In this document: positions 4,193 through 17,296 of the stretch, one piece after another | Layout of the letters: every line of letters begins with the position of its first letter | Position numbering within the stretch: the first letter of the stretch is position 1 | NCBI GenBank assembly: GCA_964035545.1 | Contig: OZ037767.1 | Span: 14,757,998-14,821,997, forward strand | Origin: Bugula neritina | Taxonomy: Eukaryota; Bryozoa; Gymnolaemata; Cheilostomatida; Bugulidae | Direction: 5' to 3' | Length of the DNA: 64,000 bases | Program-made: the position numbers and the translations under genes | The notes under the pieces: model-generated | Databases searched by the model: none | What the model was told of the DNA's origin: nothing | The model's input: only the letters and a program-made list of their open reading frames with translations

Positions 4193-6416
4193 TCAAGACA
4201 AGCATGTGACTTGCAGACGTGTGACATCACTTAGGAGGGAATTCTGGGAAGAGGAACATCTTCCTGTAGTTGGTGAAAGTACATCTACTATCTGGAATAC
4301 AGGCTCCAGAGGGGTTCTCTTTGGTTCTTATGTCCGTCATTCCAATCTGCCTCACTCTCTGTTGAATCTTGAGAATACATTATTATATGATATATTTTAT
4401 GGTGTTACAAATATGGTATATATTATACGGTATAATATAATATAATATGTTACATGGTATAATATATGGTATATTAAATGGTTTATTATATGCCATATTA
4501 TATCATGGTATATTATATAGTATGCTATATGGTAGATTATATGCTATATTATATTACACAGTATATTATATATGATATACTATAGGCCATAGGGTATATC
4601 ATATTAAATAATATATCACATATATAATGCTACAGAACATAATACAATAACACTGCTTATGTATAGTTTATCATATAACACTAGTACTACTTACAATTTT
4701 AAACAGCTGCTCTATATCTCTGTGACAGCTGTGCTTATAGAATGTGGCAACTAAAACTCTGATAAACCAAGAGCCATGAGTTCCACTTCTCACTGCTTTG
4801 TAGGCTGCAACAGATAGACACATTGGGTCATGTAACTGGGCTGTGCTTGTGCATTTGGAACAGTGTGGGAGTTGTCTTCTATTGATCTAACTTCTCGACG
4901 GGATTTAAAATGTTTTTGACAAAAAGTAAAAAGAAGGAAGTGGGTTAAAACCTCTGTTTAAAATTCCGGATGAGTTATAACATTTATAGCTAAAAATACT
5001 CAAATCAAATGATGCTCAAAAACTATGATTTTTAAAAATTGCATATTTAGAACATATTCACTTTAGGCAAACTCTCCATATGAACCACGCTGAGAGTATT
5101 GTTAACAGATCCATGAGACTATTATGTACATATATACATGTAGAAGTGATGGTAGGGTTATTGGTATATTTAGTAATATAAAATATAATTGGAATATATT
5201 ACTATATATAAACAAAACACATTTAACGCACTTTCACTTGTGGCTTTCATTATAAAGAAATCATCTAAGTTGAGTGCCTCGAGTCCAGGTCCATCTACGG
5301 AAGGACCCCACATCTCTTCCTCTTCTTTCTGCCGCAATTGTTTAAGTGTGAGAGGCTGTTGGGCAGCAGAAGCAGCTGCTGGAATAGGATTGAGTAAGGG
5401 GACAGTTGAAGCATCTCCAAACTCTACTCGATCTGCAAACATGCAATAAACTGACCAACTGTTGGAAAAGAAAACCTGGTTTAAACAAATCAAAATACTA
5501 TAAAAATAAAAAAAGCAGTGAAGTAATATAAAACACAATTTTTTAAATTTGCTATAGCACTTATTCCACTGTTTGCAATTAGAATTGCTTTATCAACAGA
5601 ATAGACAAGCTGAATATATATCCACTTGAAAGTTTAAGTACTCAAAAACTAAACCTCAAACATCCTCTTTTGGGATTCAATAAAATCAAACCATAAAATC
5701 TAATCGCTACTGGTGTTGCAAATTAAATAGGATTGTATTCCCATTTAAACATTATACCGTGATTACCTCCTGAGCACGCCTGGATTATGATGACTTTTGG
5801 TTTCCCTTTCATAGCTGGAAAATTCTGAGGAGAAAGTAAATCTTTGATTTTTGCGAGATCAACAGGCCTAAAGTTCCGATCATAAAGATTATCACCTCTT
5901 GTCCCATGAGACATGAGTACTAAGAAGAAACTTTGGTACTTGTAGTGTCCTTGATGATGCGTTTCTTGTTCAATTTCTGAGTAGATTTCCTAAAACGTAC
6001 AAAAAAGCTTCTAGATAGATTCTACACTAGGTTAATTTATGCAATTGCAGTAGTGCTTTCTGTACTGTGACAGGCACCTAATAAATAAAAGTTTCCGACC
6101 ATATACTATAATTAACACCTAATAAATAAAAGTTTCCCACCATGTACTATAATTAACACCTAATAAATAAAAGTTTCCCACCATGTACTGTGATTATAGC
6201 ACCTAATTAATAAAAGTTTCCCACCTCAGCTGTAAGATCGCTCAGCTCCTCTTGTGTTTTCACCAAGTCATATCGAAGATGTTTGAATAAAAGTTTCAAA
6301 TTTTCATAGTCGACTTCTGAACCAAGTCTGGTGTTGATGAGTTTACCATCTTCATAGAACTTGTTGTTGTTGATGATCATTGCTCTACCTCTCACTGGGT
6401 CACTCATCTGATAGAT
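4193..6416 (-). CDS. Caspase (peptidase C14) domain exons of the ROCO-caspase gene
   Basis: Exon 6416-6225 starts [17 protein letters not shown] and holds TRLGSEVD, matching the start of a caspase large subunit and its S1-pocket Arg. Exon 5989-5767 carries the catalytic His in LMSHGTRG (His codon 5908-5906) and the catalytic Cys in QACSG (Cys codon 5776-5774); splicing to 5432 completes QACSGD. Exon 5432-5232 is the inter-subunit linker, with Ala-rich and acidic stretches and several Asp residues (for example SVDGPG) that could be cleavage sites, then [11 protein letters not shown]. Exon 4804-4695 encodes small-subunit [16 protein letters not shown], and 4291-4193 the C-terminus. Ser replaces the Arg of the common QACRG pentapeptide, which many caspases tolerate. 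Protease activity is likely but unproven. Confidence 0.88.

Positions 6417-17296: not shown

Follow-up and report, generated by a model that had tools for sequence, protein, structure and literature searches.

The gene studied here probably belongs to a lineage-expanded animal family whose members join, on a single chain, an LRR sensor, a Roc-COR GTPase, an acidic connector and a complete caspase. It lies in a 64,000-nucleotide stretch of the Bugula neritina genome (the window). The exon structure, about 60 loci with the same architecture and the presence of the catalytic residues in most of the copies read were established from the DNA sequence, and for the protein itself we infer a scheme of activation. 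The original prediction described a single case. The gene turns out to be one of a family of about 60 LRR-Roc-COR-caspase genes in the same genome.

The minus-strand gene was rebuilt as 12 exons from 17296 to 4227, forming one open frame of 1265 codons with no internal stop. AG precedes all 12 exons, GT follows each internal exon, and the stop codon is a TGA at 4229-4227. The 12 exons, exact splice sites and matching phases of the original prediction were thus recovered, including the junctions 7067/6982, 6896/6766 and 6591/6416, which are exact in the rebuilt model. Its end at 4193 has to be corrected, as the coding part stops at 4227. The exons are as follows:

Exon 1, 17053..17296, minus strand: cap ahead of the LRRs; starts at an acceptor; no Pfam match
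Exon 2, 16808..16948, minus strand: LRR, 141 nt, phase 2 at both ends
Exon 3, 10434..10574, minus strand: LRR, 141 nt, phase 2 at both ends
Exon 4, 9709..9849, minus strand: LRR, 141 nt, phase 2 at both ends
Exon 5, 7067..9069, minus strand: last LRRs, Roc GTPase (with a P-loop stretch of 14 residues), COR-A and COR-B
Exon 6, 6896..6982, minus strand: connector 1, phase 1 at both ends
Exon 7, 6591..6766, minus strand: connector 2, acidic, with an SDLSDVEE motif
Exon 8, 6225..6416, minus strand: first part of the caspase p20, with the Arg of the TRLGSEVD motif
Exon 9, 5767..5989, minus strand: second part of the caspase p20, with the catalytic SHG and QACSG
Exon 10, 5232..5432, minus strand: p20-p10 linker
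Exon 11, 4695..4804, minus strand: caspase p10, with a stretch of 12 residues
Exon 12, 4227..4367, minus strand: end of p10 and stop TGA (4229-4227)

The start exon of the gene was not found. Since exon 1 starts at an acceptor, at least one 5' exon is missing from the model. A cap exon similar to exon 1 sits upstream of the LRRs in the gene at locus L046, where a frame with a candidate Met lies ahead of the cap. Neither of these two 5' frames gave a Pfam match. At the other end of the gene, an alternative in-frame acceptor for exon 12 is possible 9 nt further on.

Mobile elements and a partial duplicate were also seen in the window. The 6.2-kb intron 2 holds an LTR-like element (11448-16632) with two 314-bp ends and, as judged by eye, gag- and protease-like ORFs. 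A partial second copy of exon 1 and the LRR exons lies at 49779-52954 on the minus strand, its exon 1 being 75% identical at the protein level. No Roc, COR or caspase was matched beside it within the window. ORFs at 37374-39755, minus strand, resemble by eye pieces of a non-LTR reverse transcriptase.

In the joined 1265-residue protein, Pfam recognised LRR_14 (E 6e-20) and Peptidase_C14 (E 9e-36; 124 bits, cut-off 21.4; residues 986-1230). Roc (E 0.0041, residues 322-412), COR-A (E 0.0068, residues 536-597) and COR-B (E 0.011, residues 728-834) stayed under their curated cut-offs in the window copy. The predicted order of LRR, Roc, COR and caspase was hence recovered strongly at its two ends and below cut-off in between. 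When six homologous exons were scanned, COR-A exceeded the cut-off in three (L042, L043, L044) and Roc in two (L042, L046). COR-B did so in none of the six; it scored weakly, under the cut-off, in the window copy and in L045, and no match was listed for the other five. Exon 5 is 29-34% identical to these six exons. The Roc motifs (P-loop, DxxG-like, THxD) are invariant across the seven aligned exons, which upholds the P-loop and Roc motifs proposed from the window alone. With Roc GTPase motifs and a COR region directly after Roc, the predicted protein is classed as a ROCO protein.

A profile built from the seven exons matched the solved chains 3dpu (1e-15) and 6hlu (5e-14), which we take to be Chlorobium Roco chains, over the LRRs and Roc. 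The COR part of the profile did not match the solved Roco chains, and LRR-only matches to plant receptors outscored both 3dpu and 6hlu. A structure prediction of exon 5 alone reached a pLDDT of 33 and was discarded. Neither NACHT nor NB-ARC was matched in the joined protein (Pfam, E 0.05). CARD, PYD, DED and death domains gave no match in the 1265 residues, from which the start exon is missing, or in the 5' frames of L046.

The genome (215.8 Mb, 295 contigs) was scanned for the same parts. The scan gave 23 COR-A matches, 176 caspase matches, 150 of which were listed, and at least 150 Roc matches, from which the 39 with an open frame of at least 460 aa among the 150 listed were used. Merging the COR-A and selected Roc matches yielded 60 distinct Roc/COR loci, the window copy excluded. 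Among the matches listed, 51 of the 60 loci have a same-strand caspase match no more than 12 kb downstream, mostly at 2-4 kb, as judged for most of them by comparing hit tables with the intervening sequence left out. A same-strand upstream caspase match was listed at one locus of 60 and an opposite-strand one at none; random placement would give such a downstream caspase at 0.25 of the 60. The DNA of all nine loci without a listed caspase (seven single-exon ones, L040 and L041) was read. The COR end, the connector and the first p20 exon were present in seven of the nine, and the second p20 exon in six of these seven, the stretch of L053 stopping ahead of it. In total, a caspase follows on the same strand at 58 of the 60 other Roc/COR loci (51 + 7).

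L040 and L041 are multi-exon loci whose COR-A match falls in short frames. The 10 kb that was read contains no caspase exon, and they look like ordinary ROCO genes. A partial connector match in L041 (E 0.0034) was too weak to be taken as a real connector and was read as chance. L012, L015 and L020 were considered as caspases without Roc. This was rejected, as a COR end was found in their flanks; they are therefore members beyond the 60. The architecture is thus carried by 58 of the 60 loci, the window copy and these three, on contigs C1, C3, C5, C6 and C7. Chance co-location or misjoined exons were rejected because a caspase follows in 51 of 60 loci in the tables against 0.25 expected, and because the intron phases described below match. 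Bacterial contamination was likewise dismissed, given introns throughout, a 32-Mb contig and no confirmed prokaryote match in a scan reaching fairly close relatives.

Whether the COR exon and the caspase form one gene or two was addressed by comparing paralogs. In the six loci read first, the caspase exons follow in the same order, each locus having p20, p20 and p10. Four of them also show connector 2 (L039, L042, L044 and L046, weakly in the last two), and a profile of this exon also matched L043; L045 has no recognisable connector. Over 34 sequences, the profile matched 22, five of which had been used to build it. The caspase part has the same intron phases in all five loci compared for this. 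At the junction itself, all 16 loci in which both sides could be seen combine a phase-1 donor on the COR exon with a phase-1 best acceptor for the connector; as these loci are paralogs, the counts are not independent. By rule, the donor was placed at the last Pro-Cys or Pro-Ser codon in the COR exon; this choice makes a GT there more likely, but not the rest of the donor motif. The best acceptor was the one with the best pyrimidine tract before the connector. An exon similar to connector 1, with the same phases, was found by a strict pattern in two of 11 loci scanned, L015 and L021, both near relatives of the window copy.

Further support came from the evolution of the joining exon. In connector 2, dN is lower than dS in eight of ten pairs; the exceptions are L035/L036, where the relation is reversed (3 vs 0 changes), and L043/L044, which is saturated. 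By this measure, connector 2 bears the selection signature of coding sequence. The distances for COR end, connector and p20 were correlated across 15 loci, with r 0.69 for COR end and p20, 0.74 for COR end and connector and 0.84 for connector and p20, each above all 2000 permutations. The connector was also considered as a prodomain of free caspases. This was rejected, since the 0.7-1.5 kb ahead of p20 showed no connector in the caspases L009, L010, L014 and L029. In this check, the upstream sequence of L028 was too short and L022-L024 and L027 had no visible p20 start; in the ROCO-linked L031 and L038, the connector may fall outside the stretch scanned.

It is very improbable that the locus holds two neighbouring genes, an effectorless ROCO and a caspase, that were duplicated together and whose exons never join in a single transcript. 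An early transcript end is indicated only by an AATAAA (6565) and an ATTAAA (6582) in the 174-nt intron before the caspase, and these are about as frequent as base composition predicts. The best connector acceptor is in phase 1 in only three of the six loci that have a connector but whose COR end is out of view, which also speaks for separate genes. Against this, a splice donor and not a conserved stop closes the COR exon, the phases match wherever both sides are in view, and no connector was found in the stretch scanned ahead of the four caspases named above. Moreover, a gene end and a new promoter would hardly fit into the introns around the junction, which measure 84, 129 and 174 nt. It is very likely that COR exon and caspase form one gene. 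At the level of DNA sequence, the single protein chain of the original prediction is strongly supported by the paralogs through the downstream caspase, the phases and the exon order.

The best solved relative of the window caspase is caspase-3 (E 3e-23), with a strong match in p20 and a weak one in p10 (6.7 bits). The catalytic His and Cys align with those of caspase-3, in line with the original prediction, and two Arg and one Gln align with its pocket residues, which presumably form the Asp-binding pocket. The window caspase is classed as an animal-type peptidase C14 with complete p20 and p10 and is predicted to be a protease. His and Cys are both retained in 28 of the 31 family members read, five of which (L019, L026, L030, L035 and L036) were assigned by the connector alone. 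His is lost in L045 and Cys in L051 and L052, and these three caspases are likely catalytically dead. The p10 Arg of the Asp pocket is kept in the window copy, L015, L020, L026 and L030, and is absent from L042 and L046.

These losses, of a catalytic residue in three members and of the pocket Arg in two, together with the precedent of catalytically dead caspase relatives, would fit a chain that is made but whose caspase acts mainly as a scaffold, a decoy or a restricted signalling protease and not as a killer. This reading is unlikely, as most members keep both catalytic residues and the window copy aligns to caspase-3 across both subunits. Another explanation, judged improbable, is that the window copy is a decaying member and that only its relatives work. 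The element in intron 2 is young, its ends being 99.4% identical, a partial LRR duplicate lies upstream, and the start exon is missing. Against decay stand an uninterrupted frame of 1265 codons, GT-AG splice sites throughout, and an intact P-loop and catalytic residues.

Initiator caspases are activated by the pairing of their protease domains. ROCO proteins, for their part, would be G proteins that dimerise in a nucleotide-dependent way and are thereby activated, according to a proposal in the available parts of PMC4104024. In the scheme proposed here, the LRRs would bind a ligand or relieve autoinhibition, and GTP would alter the Roc-COR dimer. This change would pair two C-terminal caspase domains, which would cut the long p20-p10 linker and so activate themselves. 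The activated caspase would then cleave substrates after Asp, and the outcome may be cell death or an inflammation-like signal, reached without CARD, DED or PYD adaptors.

In inflammasomes and the apoptosome, NLR or APAF1 combines a repeat sensor with a nucleotide switch, and the caspase is recruited and activated by proximity. If the proposed mechanism is right, the window protein follows the same sensor-switch-caspase logic, but with a Roc GTPase instead of a STAND ATPase and with a caspase that is fused rather than recruited. An inflammasome-like function is a reasonable inference. We know of no output for MASL1, another ROCO protein. LRRK2, DAPK1 and MASL1 share the Roc-COR core and form Roc-COR dimers (available parts of PMC4104024), and such dimers are predicted for the window protein. 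The output of LRRK2 and DAPK1 is a kinase, that of the window protein a caspase.

The closest architecture in print is bacterial. In the available parts of PMC8195603, bacterial LRR-AP-GTPase-COR proteins are described that end in one of 24 or more domains, among them caspase; AP-GTPase is there another name for Roc. The caspase-bearing ones resemble the window protein in domain order, in the C-terminal position of the caspase and in having several paralogs per genome. These bacterial systems are intronless and have many alternative effectors (PMC8195603, as far as available); the window family differs in its connector exons and in the single type of effector seen among the loci read. Unlike the bacterial caspases, that of the window is of animal type and closest to caspase-3. 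A prokaryote genome scan for sequence kin, whose reach is fairly close relatives, gave 43 pattern matches, none of which was confirmed.

Among animals, ROCO proteins that carry a different effector, TIR, are known (PMC5094078, PMC9334734, available in part). ROCO expansions occur in Trichoplax, and a legend on the Trichoplax ROCOs in the accessible part of PMC4104024 names CARD and TIR. Both groups share with the window family an LRR-Roc-COR core, an immune effector or adaptor domain and lineage expansions, but the available parts of these three sources name TIR or CARD and not caspase. For sponge NLR proteins, a figure legend in PMC12909245 (available in part) lists CASc and COR among the domains without stating their combination. 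Roc is not mentioned in the accessible parts of PMC11797021 and PMC6321704. No animal ROCO-caspase was found in the open-licence literature, outside whose scope most subscription papers fall. The original remark that animal ROCOs are not known to end in a caspase agrees with that literature, but the architecture itself is described in bacteria in the available text of PMC8195603. Within that literature, the one-chain LRR-GTPase-COR-caspase design was found described for bacteria only, and its animal version appears to be new.

Clustered brown-algal ROCOs with phase-2 LRR exons are candidate immune receptors (PMC11378527, PMC4104024, both available in part). They resemble the window family in their clustered LRR-ROCO genes and phase-2 LRR exons suited to shuffling. 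Their exons measure 72 nt with one repeat each, against 141 nt here, and no caspase is named in the available text of these sources. In Bugula neritina, the clustering of copies in tandem and the modular LRR exons in phase 2 point to a repertoire for innate immunity or self-recognition. A repertoire of receptors is likewise suggested by the copies that have lost catalytic residues, taken with the clusters and the separate 141-nt phase-2 LRR exons. More specifically, and only tentatively, the family may comprise about 60 one-chain inflammasomes acting as cytosolic immune or self-recognition receptors, in which shuffled phase-2 LRR exons would give specificity and dead members would serve as decoys.

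The output of the ROCO GTPase in LRRK2 and DAPK1 is still debated. If the proposal is true, an animal protein would couple a ROCO GTPase directly to caspase activation within one chain. It would then become testable whether the GTP cycle of Roc-COR drives the proximity activation of an effector, and whether animal sensor-caspase systems include one-chain forms, as in bacteria. The family also points to a receptor repertoire missed by surveys based on NACHT or TIR.

A side observation concerns the assembly. On several small contigs (C58, C90, C99, C36, C144, C186 and C282), the strongest small-GTPase matches contain in-frame TAA and TAG but no TGA. Perhaps these follow a ciliate-like code, in which TAA and TAG are read as amino acids, and come from an associate or contaminant in the assembly.
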